From NCBI GenBank assembly GCA_020720385.1, contig DYOR01000016.1:6615-41764 (forward strand): a stretch of 35,150 nucleotides of DNA. Reading direction: 5' to 3'. Numbering within the stretch: the first letter of the stretch is position 1; the number at the start of each line of letters is the position of its first letter. The position numbers and the translations under genes are program-made. This document shows, piece by piece, positions 9,268 to 26,977 of this stretch. The stretch is from Rubrivivax sp. Lineage in GTDB: Bacteria > Pseudomonadota > Gammaproteobacteria > Burkholderiales > Burkholderiaceae_C. The notes under the pieces were generated by a model, which worked only from the letters and a program-made list of their open reading frames with translations, did not search any database and had not been told where the DNA came from.

Positions 9268-10905
9268 TCAGCGCGCTGACCAGTCCTGGCCGTCCAGGCG
9301 CGCCGTGCCCTCGGCCTGCAGCTTGAGCAGGTGCGCCAGGAGCGAGCGGCTGGCCATGGCGTGAAGGGCCGGCGCCACGTCGTCGTAGACCCGCGGCAGC
9401 AAGGCGCCGAGCGCGGCCGGGCCGGCTGCACGCAGGGCGGCGACGACCTTGGCCTCGCGCCGCAGGCGATGTGCAATGAGCGCACGCACCACCTCGTGCG
9501 GCCGCTCGACAAGGAAGCCGTGGCCGGGCGCGAGCCATTCCAGATCCTCGTCGAGCAGCGCGTGCAAGGTCGCGAGGTACAGCGCCATGTCGCCATCGGG
9601 CGGGTTGATGACCACGGTCGAGCCCTGCATCACGTGGTCGCCGGTGAAGAGCGTCTTCTCCTCCTCGAGCAGATAGCACAGGTGGTTGGCGGCGTGGCCC
9701 GGCGTGTGCAGCACGCGCAAGCTGACCCCGGGCGCCAGCGCCAGGCGCTCGCCGTGCTGCAGTTCGCGCTGCGGCACGAAGCCCGTGTCGTGCCACTCGG
9801 GGTGCACTGCGGCGCGACCCCACGCCGGCGCCCCCGTGGCCTGCGCCAGCGCCGCCGCGCCGGGCGAATGATCACGATGCGTGTGCGTGACGAGGATGCG
9901 CGCGATGCGCCCGGGCGCGGCCGCGCGCAGCGCCTGCAGGTGTGCCTCGCTCACCGGACCGGGGTCGATCACCGTCCAGTCGTCGCCCTGCCCGACGAGG
10001 TAGCTGTTCGTGCCCGGTCCGGTCATCGGCCCGGGGTTGGGCGCGGTGACGCGGATCACGTGTTCGGACAGGCGCACTGCGCGGCCCGGCAGCAGTTCGC
10101 AGTGCACATCACCGCGCCCCGCGGGATCGAGCCGCGCGATCTCGGCATAGGCCAGTTCGTCGGGCAGCACGGGGCGCGGGCCCTTGCTCGACAGGCCCAC
10201 GCGCGGCATGGTCAGGCCGATGGCCGTGCGCGCGCGCGCCTGCGCCATGGCCTGCGCGGCGGTGGCGCTGCATGCCAGGTCCTGCAGCGTGCGCCGCGTC
10301 ACCGGCAGCAGCTTGAGGCCGCGCCGCGGGTCCAGCGCGGCCTGCGGCGTGAGCCACATCAGCTCCTGCGCCTCGCCGAAGTCGGCCTGCGCCTCCTGCC
10401 CGGCCGGTGCCAGCGCGGCGAAGAAGCGCGTGTCGAAGCGCTTGGGCAGGCCCGGCGGTGTGAGCCAGTGGCTGAAGTACACCAGACCGCGCAGGTCGAG
10501 CTGCAGGCCCAGCGCGCGGCAGAACTCATCGACACCCGCCTGCCCGGCCTGGAAGCGCTCGCGCCAGGGGCGCAACGACTCGAGGTCGAACTCGCCTGCC
10601 GCGAGCAGCAGCCCGACTTCCTCGAAGGTCTCGCGCAGCGCGGCGATCATGTAGTCCAGCCCGCCCTTGCCCAGGCCGAGTCGCCGACTTGCCTGCTCGT
10701 CACTCGGGCCCAGGCAATGCGCGTGTCCGGCGCGGTCGCGCGCGTCGAGCACGCCGCCGGGGAACACCGCCACGCCGCTGCGCAGGTCGTCGTCGCGCTC
10801 GGCGCGGCGCAGCATGAGCACTTCCAGGCCCTGCGGCCCGTCGCGCAGCAGCAGCAGCGAAGCGGCCGTGCGCGCATCGGCGGGCGGGGTGTAGCCGGCG
10901 TTCAC
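9268..10905 (-). CDS. Nudix hydrolase - metallo-beta-lactamase (LACTB2-like) fusion protein
   Basis: 545-residue two-domain protein. The N-terminal half (about 1-235) is a Nudix domain. It has [12 protein letters not shown], then a long insertion, then the box end RETFEEVGL (R91, E92, E95, E96). This split-box layout is characteristic of NUDT19/RP2p-type CoA or acyl-CoA pyrophosphatases. The C-terminal half (about 270-545) is a metallo-beta-lactamase fold resembling LACTB2. It has [10 protein letters not shown], the zinc motif HTHRDH (H341, H343, D345, H346), [19 protein letters not shown] and LAPGHG. The start is GTG 10905, which overlaps the stop of the upstream racemase-like gene (GTGA), so the two are translationally coupled. 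A longer in-frame reading to 11232 would run antiparallel through that gene's coding frame and is not credible. Joint action on acyl-CoA compounds is an inference from the neighbour. Confidence 0.85.
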
Positions 10906-12044
10906 CGCGCCACCCCGGCGGCCTGCAGCGCGGCGATCTCGGCGGCCGTATAGCCGGCCTCGGCCAGCACCTCGGCGGTGTGCTGGCCGATCTCCGGCGC
11001 GGGCTGCGGCGTACCCGCGGGCGTGCGGTCGAAGTGCGGCGCCGGCGCGGGCTGCACCACGCCTTCGAGCGTGACGAAAGCCTGCCGCGCCAGGGCATGC
11101 GCGTGGCGCGGCGCCTCCTCGAAGGAGAGCACGGGAGCGAAGCAGGCATCGCTGCCCTCCAGGCGCCGGCACCACTCGTCGCGGCTGTGCTGGCACACCG
11201 CGGCGGCGATGGCCTCGCGCATCTGCGGCCACAGCTCGCGCTCGTACTGCCGCCGCACGAAGCGCTCCTCGAGGCCGAGCGCGGCGGCGAGCTGGGCGAA
11301 GAACTTGGGCTCCAGCGGCGCCAGGCTGACGAAGCGGCCGTCGGCCGTCTCATAGCTGTCGTAGAAAGGTGCGCCACCGTCGAGCAGGTTGGCACCACGC
11401 TCCTCGCCCCACAGGCCGGCGGCGTGCAGGCCGTAGAAGATCGAGGCCAGCGAGGCCGCGCCGTCGACCATCGCCGCGTCCACCACCTGGCCACGCCCGG
11501 AGCGTTGGCGCTCGAAGAGCGCGGCCATGATGCCGAACGCCAGGTAGAGGGCCCCGCCACCGTAGTCGCCCACCAGGTTCAGCGGCGGCACAGGCTTGCC
11601 GCCGGCCGGACCCAGGGCGTGCAGCGCACCGCTCAGGGCGATGTAGTTCAGGTCGTGCCCCGCGGCCGCGGCCAGCGGGCCGCTCTGGCCGAACCCCGTC
11701 ATGCGCCCGTAGACCAGCCGCGGGTTGCGCGCGTGGCACTCGACCGGGCCCAGGCCCAGGCCCTCGGTGACGCCCGGGCGCAGGCCTTCGACGAGCACGT
11801 CGGCGCCGTCCACGAGCCGCAGCAGCGCCTGGCGCCCAGCGTCGCACTTGAGATTCAGCGCCACCGAACGCCGGCCGCGCGCATTCACGTCGAAGCGCCG
11901 CGCCATGGGCAAGCCCAGCCCGCTGGGCTCGAGCCGGTCCACGCGCACGACGTCGGCGCCCAGGTCGGCGAGGAGCATGCCGCACATCGGCCCCGGGCCG
12001 ATGCCCGCCAGCTCGATCACGCGCAGTCCATTCAAAGGTCCCAT
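10902..12044 (-). CDS. CaiB/BaiF family alpha-methylacyl-CoA racemase-like protein
   Basis: 380-residue class III CoA-transferase fold protein. Its catalytic pattern matches alpha-methylacyl-CoA racemases rather than transferases. His130 (AAAGHDLNY) and Asp160 (NLVGDYGGG) keep the spacing of His126/Asp156 in the Mycobacterium tuberculosis enzyme. The [14 protein letters not shown] and [18 protein letters not shown] blocks are typical. Such enzymes epimerise 2-methylacyl-CoA esters so that branched-chain acids can enter beta-oxidation. The start ATG 12044 ([20 protein letters not shown]) fits the family, and the 24 residues upstream are not conserved. Its TGA overlaps the GTG of the Nudix-MBL gene. 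A CoA-transferase role cannot be excluded without biochemical data. Confidence 0.88.
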
Positions 12045-22242: not shown

Positions 22243-22256
22243 GATTGTTAACAATC
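22243..22256. promoter_or_regulatory. Palindromic operator candidate for the GntR/FCD regulator
   Basis: GATTGTTAACAATC is a perfect 14-bp palindrome, 13 bp before the ATG of the first operon gene and inside the only AT-rich patch nearby. Its core TTGTTAACAA fits the GntR pattern GT(N)nAC. It resembles the ATTGTATACAAT-type sites bound by FCD regulators of malonate genes such as MdcY and MatR. The second gene of the operon encodes a GntR/FCD protein, so autoregulation is likely. Binding is inferred. Confidence 0.6.
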
Positions 22257-22269
22257 TGATGATTTACTT

Positions 22270-22482
22270 ATGACCCCTGCATCCTCCGAAGTCACCGGCA
22301 TCGTCTGCCTCGTGCAGGCCCATGCCGGCCAGGTCGTGGCCGAAGGCGACACCCTCGTCGTCGTCGAGTCCATGAAGATGGAAATCCCCGTCTGCGCGCC
22401 ATGCGCCGGCACGGTGCGCGAGCTCCTCGTGGCCGTGGGCGAGGCCGTGGCCGAGGGCGACACCGTGGCCGTGTTGGGCTGA
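22270..22482 (+). CDS. Stand-alone biotin carboxyl carrier protein
   Basis: 70-residue single biotinyl/lipoyl-attachment domain. The biotin site is K36 in VVESMKMEIPV, and the typical Gly turns are HAGQVVAEGDTLVV and VAVGEAVAEGDTVAVLG. It carries CO2 between carboxylase and carboxyltransferase subunits. It is about half the size of the housekeeping AccB and lacks the AccB N-terminal region, so it should serve the acyl-CoA carboxyltransferase at the end of this operon. ATG 22270 is 13 bp after the palindrome, which leaves little room for a leader. The GntR gene starts 4 bp after its stop. Confidence 0.88.
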   Translation: MTPASSEVTGIVCLVQAHAGQVVAEGDTLVVVESMKMEIPVCAPCAGTVRELLVAVGEAVAEGDTVAVLG

Positions 22483-22486
22483 GCCC

Positions 22487-23227
22487 ATGCGCGCCATCGA
22501 CGCCGACCCCGCGCTCTTCTCCCGTTGGGAGGGCGCGGTGGCGTTTCGCCTCTTCGCCGACGAGCCCGTGCCCACGCTCACCGTGCCCGAGCAGATCGCT
22601 GCCCAGGTGGGCGAGCGCATCCTCGACGGCCGGCTCGCGCCCGGCGTGCGCATCGGCGAGCGGGAACTGGCCGACGAATTCCAGGTCAGCCGTGGCCCCG
22701 TGCGCGAGGCCATCCGCATCCTCGAGCGCGAGGGCCTGGCCACGATCCTGGCGCGGCGCGGCGCCATCGTCACGGAACTCTCGGCCGATGAACTGCGCGA
22801 GATCTTCGAGCTGCGCGCGGGCCTCTTCGACATCGTGGCGCGCAAGGTGGCGGCGGCGCCGCCTGCGGAGCTCGTGGCCGTGCTGCGTTCGGGCCTGCTG
22901 CGCCTGGAGACGCTGGCCGAGGCGCCCGAAGGCGGCAGCGACTATGCCGAGACCACCTACCGGCTGCTCCTCATCACCGCACGCTTCTGCGACAACCGGC
23001 GCGTGCAACGGCTGCTCGCGGCACTCTCGCTGCAGACATTGCGCTACAGCAAGCTCGGCCTGGCCACCGTGGAGCGCCGCCGACGCTCGGTGAAGCTGTG
23101 GCGCCAGGCGATGACGGCGCTGGAGCGTGGCGACGCCGAGCGCCTGATGGCCTTGACGCGCCAACGCATTCACGAGTCGGGCGACGAAGCTGCGCGCCGG
23201 CTCGAACCCCGGGGCACCCACACATGA
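22487..23227 (+). CDS. GntR family regulator, FadR/FCD subfamily
   Basis: 246-residue transcription factor. The winged helix-turn-helix (about 33-100) has the GntR signature IAAQVGERILDGRLAPGVRI, ELADEFQVSRGPVREAIRIL and EREGLATILARRGAIV. The C-terminal all-helical FCD effector domain covers about 105-235. Positions that carry metal-binding His in many FCD proteins appear changed: YRLLLITARFCDN where FH.L...SGN is usual, and SVKLWRQAM where an H is usual. Effector binding may therefore be metal-independent. About 30 N-terminal residues precede the wHTH. It probably controls its own operon through the palindrome at 22243-22256. Its TGA overlaps the CoA-transferase ATG. Confidence 0.88.
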   Translation: MRAIDADPALFSRWEGAVAFRLFADEPVPTLTVPEQIAAQVGERILDGRLAPGVRIGERELADEFQVSRGPVREAIRILEREGLATILARRGAIVTELSADELREIFELRAGLFDIVARKVAAAPPAELVAVLRSGLLRLETLAEAPEGGSDYAETTYRLLLITARFCDNRRVQRLLAALSLQTLRYSKLGLATVERRRRSVKLWRQAMTALERGDAERLMALTRQRIHESGDEAARRLEPRGTHT

Positions 23228-24417
23228 ACGAACGCAGCACGAGAGGCCCGCTCGCCGGGCTCACCGTGATCGAGATCGGCAACACCATCGCCGGCCCGGC
23301 CTGTGCGCGGCTGCTGGCGGACTTTGGCGCCGACGTCATCAAGATCGAGCCGCCCGAGGGCGACCCGGTGCGCCAGATGGGAAGGCATGTCGCCACCGAG
23401 TCGGGCGACGCCTCCCTCTATGCCGCGTCGATCCTGCGCGGCAAGCGCTCGGTGGTCCTCGACCTCAAGTCGACCGAGGGCCGCGCCGCCGCGCATGCGC
23501 TGATCGAGCGCGCCGACATCCTGGTGGAGAACAACCGCCCCGGGGTGATGGAGCGCCTGGGCTTCGGCTATGACGTGCTCGCGCAGCGCAACCCCGGCCT
23601 GGTGATGGTGCGCATCAGCGGCTTCGGTCAGGACGGTCCTTACGCCGGCCGCCCCGGCTACGGCGCCATCTGCGAGGCGGTGGGCGGCGTGCGCCACCTC
23701 ACCGGCGACCCCGACCGGCCGCCCGCGCGCGTGGCCCTGGCCACCACCGACTACCTGACTTCGGTGTACGCGGCCTTCGGCGCCATGGCGGCGATTCACG
23801 AGCGCCAGCGCTCGGGGCGCGGACAGGTGGTGGACGCCGCGCTGTACGAGGCCGCCTTCACGCAGCTCGAGCCGATCGTCCCGGCCTACGAGAAGCTGGG
23901 CGAAGTGCCGATGCGCGAAGGCCCCAACCTGCCTTCGATGGCCCCCAACAGCTCGTACCCGACGCGCGACGGCGGCTACGTGCTCATCGCCGCCAACAGC
24001 CAGCCCACCTGGCTGCGCCTGGTGGCCGCCATGGCGCAGCCCGAGCTGGCGCGCGACGAACGCTTTGCCACCATCCGCAGCCGCGGCCGGCCCGAGCACA
24101 TGAAGGCGCTGGACGCGATCATCGCGGCGTGGACCGTGCGCTTCGATGGCCCGGCGCTGGAGGCGCTGCTGCAGGCCGCCGACGTGCCCAATACGCGCGT
24201 CTACACCATCGCCGACATCTACGCCGACGCGCAGTTCACCGCGCGCGGCATGCTGCTGCAGGTGCCCCACCCCACGCTGGGCCACACCACGCAGGCGGGC
24301 ATCGTGCCGCGCCTGTCGGCCACCCCGGGGTGCGTGCGCCACACCGGCCCGGAACTCGGCGCGGACACCGCCGCCGTGCTCGAACAGATCCGTTCATACA
24401 AGGAGCCCACGCCATGA
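23224..24417 (+). CDS. CaiB/BaiF (class III) acyl-CoA transferase
   Basis: 397-residue class III CoA-transferase. It shows the N-terminal GLTVIEIGNTIAGPACARLL, the conserved DFGADVIKIEPPEGDPVR, the nucleotide-binding-like NRPGVMERLG, and the likely catalytic Asp D176 in ALATTDYLTSVYAAFGA, where formyl-CoA transferase has D169. Such enzymes move CoA between a donor ester and a carboxylic acid. The His/Asp racemase pattern of the gene at 10902 is absent, so a true transferase is more likely here. Both ends overlap neighbours by ATGA. It presumably makes the CoA ester of the acid imported through the Bug receptor, which then becomes the carboxyltransferase substrate (inference). Confidence 0.9.
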   Translation: MNERSTRGPLAGLTVIEIGNTIAGPACARLLADFGADVIKIEPPEGDPVRQMGRHVATESGDASLYAASILRGKRSVVLDLKSTEGRAAAHALIERADILVENNRPGVMERLGFGYDVLAQRNPGLVMVRISGFGQDGPYAGRPGYGAICEAVGGVRHLTGDPDRPPARVALATTDYLTSVYAAFGAMAAIHERQRSGRGQVVDAALYEAAFTQLEPIVPAYEKLGEVPMREGPNLPSMAPNSSYPTRDGGYVLIAANSQPTWLRLVAAMAQPELARDERFATIRSRGRPEHMKALDAIIAAWTVRFDGPALEALLQAADVPNTRVYTIADIYADAQFTARGMLLQVPHPTLGHTTQAGIVPRLSATPGCVRHTGPELGADTAAVLEQIRSYKEPTP

Positions 24418-25418
24418 ACCACCCCAACCGCCGCGATGCGCTGGCCTGCCTGGCCGGACTGGCCACGGGCTCCATCCCGCTGGGCACCGCAGCGCAAGCC
24501 CCTGGCTGGCAGCCCACCGAGCGCATCACCTACCTCATCGGCGTGGCTCCCGGCGGCACGGTGGACCTCTACGCCCGCGGCATCCGGGACACGCTGGAGA
24601 CGCTCAAGCTCGTCAACGGCCAGACGATCGTCCCCGAGAACAAGGTCGGTGCGGGCGGCGCACTGGCCCTGCAGGCGCTGGCGGCACAGGCCGGCAACGG
24701 CCACTACCTGGCCACCTTCCACACCGGCGCCATTGCCGGTGCGGTGACCGGCCTCATCCGCGCGGACGTGCGCCAGTTTCCCCCGGTGTCGATGATGGTC
24801 GAGGAAACCTCGCTGGTGGCCGTGCGCGCCGATTCGCCGCTGAAGAGCGCGTCGGACCTGGTGGCCGCGCTCAAGGCCGACCCGATGGGGCTGCGCATCG
24901 CCGTGGCACCGGCGTTGGGGCAGAACACGCACATGGCCATCGCCAAGCCGCTGAAGGTGGCCGGCGTGGCCATCGACAGGCTCACCATCGCGCCCTTCCG
25001 TTCCTCGGGCGAGTCGGTGACGGCCCTGCTCGGTGGGCATGTGGACGTCGTCTCGGCCACCGCGCCGGTGGTGGTGGCGCATGTCGCGGCGGGCAAGCTG
25101 CGCCTCATCGCCAGCGCCGCGGCCGAGCGCGGCAGCGGCCCGCTGGCCGAGGTGAAGACCTGGCGCGAGCAGGGCGTGGCCGCGGACTACGTGAGCTACA
25201 ACGGCGTGCTGTTGGCTCCGAAGGCCACACCCGAACAGTTCCAATTCTGGGAGGTGGCGCTGCGCAAGGTGGCGCAGCACCCGGCCTGGATCGCCATGGT
25301 CGAGCGCTCGGGCAACAAGGCGATCTTCCGCGGCCACGAGGAGTCGATGCGCTACCTGGACACCGAATGGAAGGCGGCGAGCGCGCTGGCCGCCGAGCTC
25401 GGGCTGGCCGGCAAATGA
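24414..25418 (+). CDS. Bug/TctC family periplasmic solute-binding protein
   Basis: 334 residues. The N-terminus (NRRDALACLAGLATGSIPLG) looks like a twin-arginine signal, with cleavage after AQA. The mature part shows Bug family features: ITYLIGVAPGGTVDLYAR near the start, VPENKVGAGGALALQAL, SPLKSASDLVAALKA, and a long region on ligand specificity that cannot be read by eye. Bug proteins bind carboxylates for tripartite tricarboxylate (TctAB) transport, and many Burkholderiales Bug genes are orphans, as here with no tctA or tctB. The overlaps with the CoA-transferase and carboxyltransferase genes imply that the ligand is the pathway substrate. The ligand itself is unknown. Confidence 0.87.
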   Translation: MNHPNRRDALACLAGLATGSIPLGTAAQAPGWQPTERITYLIGVAPGGTVDLYARGIRDTLETLKLVNGQTIVPENKVGAGGALALQALAAQAGNGHYLATFHTGAIAGAVTGLIRADVRQFPPVSMMVEETSLVAVRADSPLKSASDLVAALKADPMGLRIAVAPALGQNTHMAIAKPLKVAGVAIDRLTIAPFRSSGESVTALLGGHVDVVSATAPVVVAHVAAGKLRLIASAAAERGSGPLAEVKTWREQGVAADYVSYNGVLLAPKATPEQFQFWEVALRKVAQHPAWIAMVERSGNKAIFRGHEESMRYLDTEWKAASALAAELGLAGK

Positions 25419-26977
25419 CCCGGCGCGATTTCGAGCCCGCCGGCGAGTGGGCCGCCGAGCTCGCCGAGCTGCAGGCCCGGCGTGCCCAGGCCGCGGCCAT
25501 GGGCGGGCCCGAGGCGCTGGCCAAGTTCGCCTCCAGTGGCCGGCTGAATGCGCGCGAGCGCATCGCTGTGCTGTGCGACGAAGGCAGCTTCTTCGAGATG
25601 GGTCGCATTGCCGGCAAGGGCCACGACGAGGTCGATGGCAGCTTCAAGCGGCTCGACCCGACGAATGCCATCGTCGGCACCGGCCGCATCGACGGGCGCA
25701 AGGTGGCGCTGCACGCCGACGACTTCACCATCCGCGCGGGTTCCTCCGAAGCCACCATCGCCGACAAGTGGATCTACATCGAACGCCTGGCGCAGCAGCT
25801 GCGCATGCCACTGGTGCGGCTGGTGGATTCGGCCGGCGGCAGCGTCAAGCTGCTGATGCAGATCGGCGGCACGAAGATCCCCGAGTACCCGAGCTGGCCG
25901 GCGCAGGAACTGCTGCGCACGGTGCCGGTGGTGGGCGTGGCGCTGGGCGCCTGCGCCGGCCAGGGCGCGATCAAGGTGCTCTCGTCGCACTTCTCGGTGA
26001 TGGTGCGCGGCCAGGCCCAGGTGATGGCCGCCGGGCCGCACGTGGTGCGCCAGGCCTATGGCGTGGAGATCGACAAGAACGAGCTCGGCGGCCACGCCGT
26101 GCACCGCAAGAGCGCCCTGGTGCACAACGAGGCCGTGGACGAGCGCGATGCACTGGCACAGGTGCGGCGCTTCCTCTCGTACCTGCCGGCGAGCGTGTTC
26201 GACATCGCCCCGGTGCTGCCGCGCAGCGACGACCCCGGTCGCGCCGAGGACTCGCTCAAGGACGCCATCCCGCGCGAGCGGCGCAAGATCTACGAGCCGC
26301 GCAAGATCCTCGAAGCGGTGTTCGACCTGGGCTCGATCTTCGAGATCGGACGCTGGCAGGCGGGATCGGTGGTCACCGCGCTGGCGCGCCTGGACGGTAT
26401 CCCGGTGGGCGTGATCGCCAACGACCCCAAGGTGCAGGGCGGCGCGATGAACGCTGCGGCGGCCTACAAGATGGAGCGCCACGTCGAGCTGTGCAGCCTC
26501 TTCGGCCTGCCGGTGGTGAACTTCGTCGACCAGCCCGGCAACGCCACCGGCCTTGAGGCCGAGCTCGCCGGCACGCTGCTCGGCGCCACGCGCCTGGGCC
26601 GGGCGCTGCACGAGAGCCGCTCGCCCTGGGTGAGCATCCTCGTGCGCCGTTGCTTCGGCATGGCCGGTGCGCTGCACGGCCCCAAGGGTGGGGAGCGGCT
26701 CAACCACCGCTTCGCCTGGCCCTCGGCGCGCTGGGGGTCGATCCCCATCGAAGGCGGCGTGATGGCCGCGCACAAGGCCGAGATCGACGCCGCGCCCGAC
26801 CCCGCGGCCAAGCGCGCCGAGCTCGAGGCGCACTATCTGAACATGACCTCGCCGTTTCGCACGGCGGAGAAGTTCGGCGTGCTCGACATCATCGACCCGC
26901 GCGAGACGCGACCCATCCTGTGCGACTGGGTGCAGGACGCCTGGCGCGTGGCCTGCCACCGCGGTGCGCCGCGGTAG
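25415..26977 (+). CDS. Acyl-CoA carboxylase carboxyltransferase subunit (PccB/MmdA-like)
   Basis: 520 residues with the two crotonase-like halves of biotin-dependent carboxyltransferases. The N-terminal half shows the LNARERIAVLCDEGSFFEMG start block, DDFTIRAGSSEATIADKWIY, LVDSAGGSVKL and GACAGQGAIKVLSSHFSVMV. The C-terminal half shows VIANDPKVQGGAMNAAAAYK, VVNFVDQPGNATGLEAELAG and the FAWPSARWGSIPIEGG block. Residue choices around the active sites (AGGSVKL for the usual SGGARIQ, QPGNATG for QPGFMVG) are divergent, so the acyl substrate is not predictable. It could act as a carboxylase with a biotin carboxylase encoded elsewhere, or as part of a decarboxylase like MmdA. The ATG at 25415 overlaps the Bug gene stop. 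Confidence 0.85.
   Translation: MTRRDFEPAGEWAAELAELQARRAQAAAMGGPEALAKFASSGRLNARERIAVLCDEGSFFEMGRIAGKGHDEVDGSFKRLDPTNAIVGTGRIDGRKVALHADDFTIRAGSSEATIADKWIYIERLAQQLRMPLVRLVDSAGGSVKLLMQIGGTKIPEYPSWPAQELLRTVPVVGVALGACAGQGAIKVLSSHFSVMVRGQAQVMAAGPHVVRQAYGVEIDKNELGGHAVHRKSALVHNEAVDERDALAQVRRFLSYLPASVFDIAPVLPRSDDPGRAEDSLKDAIPRERRKIYEPRKILEAVFDLGSIFEIGRWQAGSVVTALARLDGIPVGVIANDPKVQGGAMNAAAAYKMERHVELCSLFGLPVVNFVDQPGNATGLEAELAGTLLGATRLGRALHESRSPWVSILVRRCFGMAGALHGPKGGERLNHRFAWPSARWGSIPIEGGVMAAHKAEIDAAPDPAAKRAELEAHYLNMTSPFRTAEKFGVLDIIDPRETRPILCDWVQDAWRVACHRGAPR

Follow-up and report, generated by a model that had tools for sequence, protein, structure and literature searches.

Gene Content of the Operon

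The DNA analyzed here, referred to throughout as the window, is a 35,150-nt stretch of the genome of Rubrivivax sp. (GCA_020720385.1, contig DYOR01000016.1, positions 6,615–41,764 of the forward strand). At 22270–26977, it contains five genes on one strand, each supported by a Pfam match (table 1), a set that we propose encodes a carboxylase lacking a biotin carboxylase (BC) of its own. The tight packing of these co-directional genes, described in an earlier note on this DNA, is borne out by the sequence, with a 4-bp gap at the first junction and ATGA overlaps at the other three, and our results support its proposal that a single operon joins a receptor, CoA activation, and biotin chemistry. 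The operon start that it gave, 22243, needs correction: no gene begins there, the first ATG of the carrier gene is at 22270, and 22243 marks the edge of a palindrome. All five reading frames are intact. A search for sigma-70-like promoters returned no match, and the one terminator-like site found lies on the minus strand, shuffled sequences having 1.5 on average.

With its PF00364 match and ESMKME motif, the carrier has the features expected of a biotinylatable carrier of acyl-CoA carboxylases, and the PF01039 match spans residues 40–503 of the carboxyltransferase, as in their two-domain β-subunits. The BC that such carboxylases hold in the same enzyme is absent from the operon. The best NCBIfam model for the regulator is phnR_burk (95 bits, below the cut-off of 271.5). 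A second CaiB-family gene is present in the window (10905–12044, minus strand); its product is 35% identical to the CaiB of the operon.

Table 1. Features of the operon, in window coordinates.
Feature	Position	Strand	Evidence
Perfect palindrome ATTGTTAACAAT, predicted operator for the operon's GntR/FCD regulator	22244..22255		See Predicted Operator
Stand-alone biotin carrier, 70 aa	22270..22482	+	PF00364, 56.3 bits; motif ESMKME; NCBIfam PRK05889, 75.3 bits (cut-off 75)
GntR/FCD transcriptional regulator, 246 aa	22487..23227	+	PF00392 and PF07729
CaiB/BaiF (family III) CoA-transferase, 397 aa, proposed acid activator	23224..24417	+	PF02515, 404.6 bits
Bug/TctC periplasmic solute receptor, 334 aa	24414..25418	+	PF03401, 105.7 bits
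Acyl-CoA carboxyltransferase, 520 aa, GGSVK subfamily	25415..26977	+	PF01039, 256.6 bits

Distribution and Layouts of Related Loci

Relatives were sampled as the best 80 of 169 confirmed loci, which include Limnohabitans, Hydrogenophaga, Rhodoferax, Rubrivivax, Ideonella, and Advenella, many of them as metagenome bins. Locus counts were taken from the BLAST table; simple codon-score gene calls miss genes in contigs of lower GC content (L121, L125). Forty-eight loci (the window, L088–L133, and L142) constitute the close set, from which the six loci L068–L073 were excluded. Layout A, defined by CaiB, Bug, and carboxyltransferase genes in this order, comprises 25 loci, 23 of them with the full set of five in sequence. 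Layout B, in which an acyl-CoA ligase and the carrier are encoded on the strand opposite to Bug and the carboxyltransferase, shows its ligase–carrier block in 11 loci. Two fragments composed only of BC, Bug, and carboxyltransferase genes (L097 and L110) were placed in layout B by the BC itself and are excluded from frequencies; the remaining ten close loci are termed others. Given that the complete five-gene order recurs in 23 of the 48 close loci, window included, the gene set is not a chance association; the order, the palindrome, and most overlaps are retained in loci whose carboxyltransferase is as little as 72% identical to that of the window.

Searches with the carboxyltransferase matched 32 of 300 genomes in the order (E value of 1e-100 or better) and, under a stricter limit of 1e-160, 4 of 150 in the family. 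Both figures count the window's own genome; the one same-genus genome among those listed has no match. Copies on plasmids (11 records) are more distant, every one under 60% identity. Based on this patchy distribution and the plasmid location of distant copies, we infer that the operon is an accessory, mobile trait.

Biotin Carboxylase Genes

The lack of a BC gene, which the earlier note had pointed out, extends beyond the operon: in the window's genome, a draft that is 93% complete, BC C-domains were found only at AccC, PccA, and MccA, all on other contigs. AccC is the sole stand-alone BC found in this genome, PccA and MccA being fusions, and each of 27 genomes contains at least two BC matches. 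No BC was found in any of the 25 layout-A loci, 17 of which have at least 6.9 kb of upstream and 3.8 kb of downstream sequence, the others being shorter so that a more distant BC could escape. Outside this layout, a BC is present in 3 of the 11 layout-B loci showing the ligase–carrier block (L093, L105, and L127), in 3 of the 10 others (L126, L129, and L131), and within 9 kb in 18 of 67 distant loci, two of which (L083 and L138, with identical BCs) look like one locus. In L068, outside the close set, a BC and a PF03601 gene both lie within 9 kb. The fragments L097 and L110 carry a BC beside a carboxyltransferase that is 82% identical to the window's in both cases. One of the findings by which the earlier note would have been refuted, a BC regularly encoded beside these genes, applies in part: one is found there in some members of layout B, the others, the distant loci, and a Variovorax plasmid, and in none of the 25 loci with the window's layout.

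In L093, L105, and L127, the full-length BC retains AccC-like motifs, which include catalytic residues, at positions ARHVEIQ, ERECSTQRRHQK, and EMNTRIQVEH. In a tree of 25 BC rows (24 different), 16 cis-encoded BCs, including those of Advenella and L068, form one clade (support 100), the three layout-B sequences fall into a second (99), and two Roseomonadaceae rows into a third (100). That cis-encoded BCs stem from different lineages fits a repeated demand for this activity. Layout A may have lost an ancestral BC and layout B acquired a different one, a history in which gain cannot be separated from loss by the tree alone; for the operon itself, we consider it most likely that an own BC was lost.

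The Carboxyltransferase Subfamily

Among PDB sequences, the carboxyltransferase best matches PccB (6ybq, 231.9 bits), and the 12S subunit (1on3) is also among the matches. It scores 276 bits against the mmdA model TIGR01117, below the cut-off of 998.8, a miss that excludes little given that the PccB stretch of the same genome also falls under this cut-off (769.5). The unusual motif residues highlighted by the earlier note are real and belong to a subfamily rather than being peculiar to the window's protein: of 53 close rows, 52 have GGSVK and one (L119) has GGSVR, GGSVK being shared by 44 of 69 distant rows. VDQPGN[AQ]TG characterizes 51 of the 53 close rows and none of the 69 distant ones, and the 26 PccB/MccB-like rows lack both motifs. 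GGGGSV was found in 53 distant rows of the 69. In the window's protein, an alanine occupies the position of an aspartate in 6ybp and an isoleucine in 6ybq, a position that presumably tunes acyl size.

The earlier note had called for placing the protein in a tree with PccB and MccB. A quick tree built from 78 rows (support from SH-aLRT only, rooted on MccB, with long branches that make deeper joins unsafe) places it in a distinct subfamily, PccB and MccB lying outside. Within the subfamily, it clusters with 14 rows, mostly of layout B (SH-aLRT 95), apart from the main layout-A group. These relatives are 79–84% identical to it, and CaiB is usually replaced in their loci by an AMP-forming CoA ligase; the group includes the BC-adjacent carboxyltransferases of L093, L097, L105, and L110 (82–84% identical). 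The L127 protein (68%) is placed outside despite its layout-B-type block of ligase, carrier, BC, and Bug genes. The window's receptor has a median identity of 72% to those of 12 layout-B loci versus 60% to those of 24 layout-A loci, in agreement with the carboxyltransferase tree, and closely related enzymes thus occur with CaiB or a ligase and with or without a BC. The GGSVK subfamily is large and apparently uncharacterized. One further cluster (L056:9421-18373, also L065 and L066) combines a carboxyltransferase of the window's family with two tandem molybdenum-cofactor oxidoreductase genes (PF00174 and PF03404), an ETF pair, a second carboxyltransferase, and a BC; Pfam assignments were made on L056 only, and L066 is described from gene calls and the BLAST table.

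The Proposed Activating Enzyme and the Receptor

The best NCBIfam match of CaiB is succinyl-CoA:mesaconate CoA-transferase (NF041294, 259.1 bits, below the cut-off of 700), and it is not assigned to that family. The best evidence that CaiB activates the acid with CoA comes from relatives that swap in other activating enzymes: an AMP-forming ligase in sister loci (Pfam on L130, the rest by BLAST), SucC/SucD-like subunits (Pfam on L127 and L070; BLAST for L071 and L072), an ADP-forming acyl-CoA synthetase of ~700 aa (Pfam on L049 and L077; BLAST for L052, L055, L083, L084, and L138), and, by annotation, a 3-oxoacid CoA-transferase on a Diaphorobacter plasmid. The window's genome contains two TctA matches. 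Mesaconate-like dicarboxylates, considered as substrates, could not be supported, nor could sulfo-acids, which had been suggested by YeiH and the molybdenum-cofactor oxidoreductases in L056.

Predicted Operator

When one mismatch is allowed, the palindrome ATTGTTAACAAT occurs nowhere else in the window, and 100 shuffles gave no match. Counting the window, 22 of the 23 complete five-gene loci have it before the carrier gene; the one exception, L106, is a contig on which the carrier match starts at base 45. The exact site is also present in both Advenella loci (L129 and L131). In layout B, the one-letter variant ATTGTTGACAAT is found at the carrier/receptor promoter in 10 of the 11 loci that show the carrier (exception L093), and ATTGTCAACAAT lies upstream of GntR in L105, L107, and L130. 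Across 31 genomes, the degenerate pattern ATTGTYRACAAT has a single occurrence in 13, two in 12, and three to seven in 6, whereas its reversed control is absent from 29 of them and occurs once in each of the other 2; the pattern is therefore rare, yet not strictly unique. We posit that the palindrome is likely the operator of the operon's own GntR regulator and that the operon is probably self-regulated.

With the same tolerance of one mismatch, the window's genome holds two sites, that of the operon and one beside another GntR gene; a wider regulon was considered and rejected. At the second site (L169, C14:3180), ATTGTCAACAAT adjoins an ABC receptor gene and a GntR gene that resembles PhnR_burk (246.5 bits, cut-off 271.5). 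Given this adjacency, two paralogous regulators in this genome may use a nearly identical operator.

Membrane Proteins in the Neighborhoods of Relatives

As the earlier note had proposed, we checked neighborhoods for an added BC, which some relatives have, and for an MmdB-like membrane subunit. OAD_beta (PF03977), the MmdB-type subunit, was found in 0 of 27 genomes searched, with controls positive in 2 of 14, and an Na+-pump subunit of MmdA/OAD-type decarboxylases was rejected on this count. A different membrane family, PF03601 (YeiH/PSE), is represented by a gene or part of one in 13 of the 48 close loci; assignment was by Pfam on L088 and L107. Ten of these 13 are full-length matches, the other three being a 79-aa fragment (L090), a gene in two frames (L115), and one that reaches the contig end (L123). 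Of the 22 layout-A loci whose downstream sequence reaches 600 bp or more, 10 have the gene after the carboxyltransferase, as do the fragments L089 and L091; in L107 (7914-8942), it lies between carrier and receptor, where the sister loci L093 and L105 hold the BC. PF03601 was not detected in the window's own genome or within 9 kb in any of the 67 distant loci, and a match exists somewhere in 23 of 34 genomes searched. Mutual exclusion with a cis-encoded BC in the close set (PF03601 in 0 of 8 BC loci vs. 13 of 40 others) was considered and is not significant (Fisher p = 0.088, rows not independent).

YeiH confers sulfite resistance in Salmonella (PMC12880088). According to PMC8396727, PF03601, OAD_beta, and Sbt_1 bicarbonate transporters belong to the CPA/AT clan, and the fold type differs between PF03601 and OAD_beta. 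The PF03601 protein of relatives may serve in bicarbonate supply or in carboxybiotin discharge; neither role fits the window's genome as sequenced.

Proposed Function and Alternatives

We hypothesize, with a probability of about 60%, that the five genes form a catabolic acyl-CoA carboxylase operon without its own BC, dedicated to an imported, CoA-activated acid, with the carrier being charged by a BC encoded elsewhere. This hypothesis builds on gene content and order, their conservation and that of the operator, the absence of BC and MmdB genes from the data searched, and the presence of BC in relatives. A carboxylic acid inducer would free the GntR/FCD repressor from ATTGTTAACAAT, the Bug protein would capture the acid in the periplasm, and a TctAB-type permease encoded elsewhere in the genome would import it. 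CaiB would then transfer CoA to the acid from a cellular acyl-CoA, the 70-aa carrier would be biotinylated and subsequently carboxylated at the expense of ATP by the BC acting in trans, and the carboxyltransferase would pass CO2 from carboxybiotin to the acyl-CoA, if the reaction proceeds in this direction. The BC donor is most likely AccC, since no other stand-alone BC was found in the genome, and possibly PccA or MccA. Of the two alternatives offered by the earlier note, the shared housekeeping AccC is favored and a decarboxylase in the style of MmdA/MmdC disfavored by the occurrence of BC beside carboxyltransferases 82–84% identical to the window's and by the absence of OAD_beta.

Several observations weigh against this hypothesis. 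The precedent (PMC4064979) shares a biotinylated α-subunit and not a BC alone onto a foreign carrier; a BC is seen in only 3 of the 11 sister loci with the ligase–carrier block; the incomplete draft could be missing an additional BC; and the PF03601 genes of the 13 close loci are left unexplained.

The system might instead be a biotin-dependent decarboxylase: CaiB would activate a dicarboxylate taken up by the cell, biotin would accept its carboxyl group, and carboxybiotin would be discharged either by reversal of the BC reaction or by a membrane protein, which in relatives would be PF03601. Such a function would suit the two best NCBIfam matches of CaiB, both below their cut-offs, which act on the dicarboxylates mesaconate and glutarate, as well as the placement of PF03601 after the carboxyltransferase or, in L107, between carrier and receptor, its separation from cis-encoded BCs in all 48 close loci, and the clan it shares with OAD_beta (PMC8396727). 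We nevertheless consider a decarboxylase unlikely because the window's genome has neither PF03601 nor OAD_beta, the separation from BC is statistically weak and is broken by L068, and the two families differ in fold type (same source).

A very unlikely explanation is that the operon is a remnant, either decaying after the loss of BC or serving mainly to sense or sequester its substrate; the patchy occurrence (4 of 150 family genomes, and not in the one same-genus genome among those listed) speaks for it, whereas the five intact frames and the retention of order, operator, and most overlaps down to 72% identity speak against it. Least probable in our judgment is an ATP-free transcarboxylase in which the carrier moves CO2 between acyl-CoAs or from an oxo acid. 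The 12S/1.3S/5S transcarboxylase has a carrier and a 12S-like subunit and no BC, a composition that the operon matches, and 1on3 is among the PDB matches; set against this are the occurrence of BC in relatives and the scarcity of the 5S-type domain PYC_OADA, which was found in 4 of 27 genomes and not in the window's own draft.

Returning to the carboxylase hypothesis, the family as a whole looks like a portable cassette for import, activation, and carboxylation with interchangeable activating enzymes. The GGSVK subfamily comes with a set of genes that is conserved and an operator that is predicted, and its members form a natural series in which BC is present in some and absent from others; this makes testable the charging of a foreign carrier by a housekeeping BC in Proteobacteria, and the operator, the activator swaps, and the receptor offer routes toward the substrate. 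A bolder combination, which we regard as quite unlikely in its entirety, is that receptor, carboxyltransferase, and an activator of at least five interchangeable types move as one portable cassette whose BC is lost and regained, which would couple a catabolic carboxylase to AccC, an enzyme of fatty-acid metabolism, and that the YeiH-type CPA/AT protein is the missing membrane partner in relatives. If so, the latter would supply bicarbonate to the carboxylase or discharge carboxybiotin as a new substitute for OadB.

Comparison with Known Systems

The open-licence literature, which was the scope of the search (subscription papers lay outside it), yielded no characterized operon of the same make-up, consistent with the earlier note, which knew of no characterized pathway with exactly these genes. 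Like PccB (6ybp and 6ybq), the β-subunit of propionyl-CoA carboxylase, in its holoenzyme, the carboxyltransferase is a member of a family that works with a biotin carrier and BC; it differs in having GGSVK where PccB has GGARIQEG and alanine where the two structures have aspartate and isoleucine. PccA of the same genome is a BC–carrier fusion encoded next to PccB, unlike the 70-aa carrier of the operon, which is encoded without BC. In methylmalonyl-CoA decarboxylase, MmdABCDE, the carboxyltransferase and carrier are separate proteins and BC is lacking. The operon resembles it in these respects and differs in its low score against the mmdA model (276 vs. 998.8) and in the absence of an MmdB-type subunit from all 27 genomes.

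The AccA3 α-subunit of actinobacterial acyl-CoA carboxylases is a BC–carrier fusion. In these systems, the α-subunit is common to several carboxylases, as stated in PMC4064979, and the carboxyltransferase of the operon would likewise use a subunit that also serves other carboxylases; the difference is that the whole biotinylated α-subunit is shared in the former, whereas the operon has a private carrier and only BC is missing.

A similar gene set is on a plasmid of Variovorax sp. PBL-E5 (NZ_LR594673.1), where CaiB (67% identical), the carboxyltransferase (56%), the carrier (51%), and Bug (41%) are encoded in the row Bug, second carboxyltransferase, BC, carrier, Bug, CaiB, carboxyltransferase. 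This plasmid differs from the operon in its additional BC and second carboxyltransferase and in carrying MarR and LysR genes in place of GntR; its annotation is generic only. Within 25 kb, the plasmid holds two window-like and two PccB-like carboxyltransferases, two CaiB proteins, two carriers, one BC, and several Bug receptors. In our reading, the enzyme is of a familiar type and its arrangement is what is unusual: a conserved carboxylase operon without BC, most likely charged in trans.

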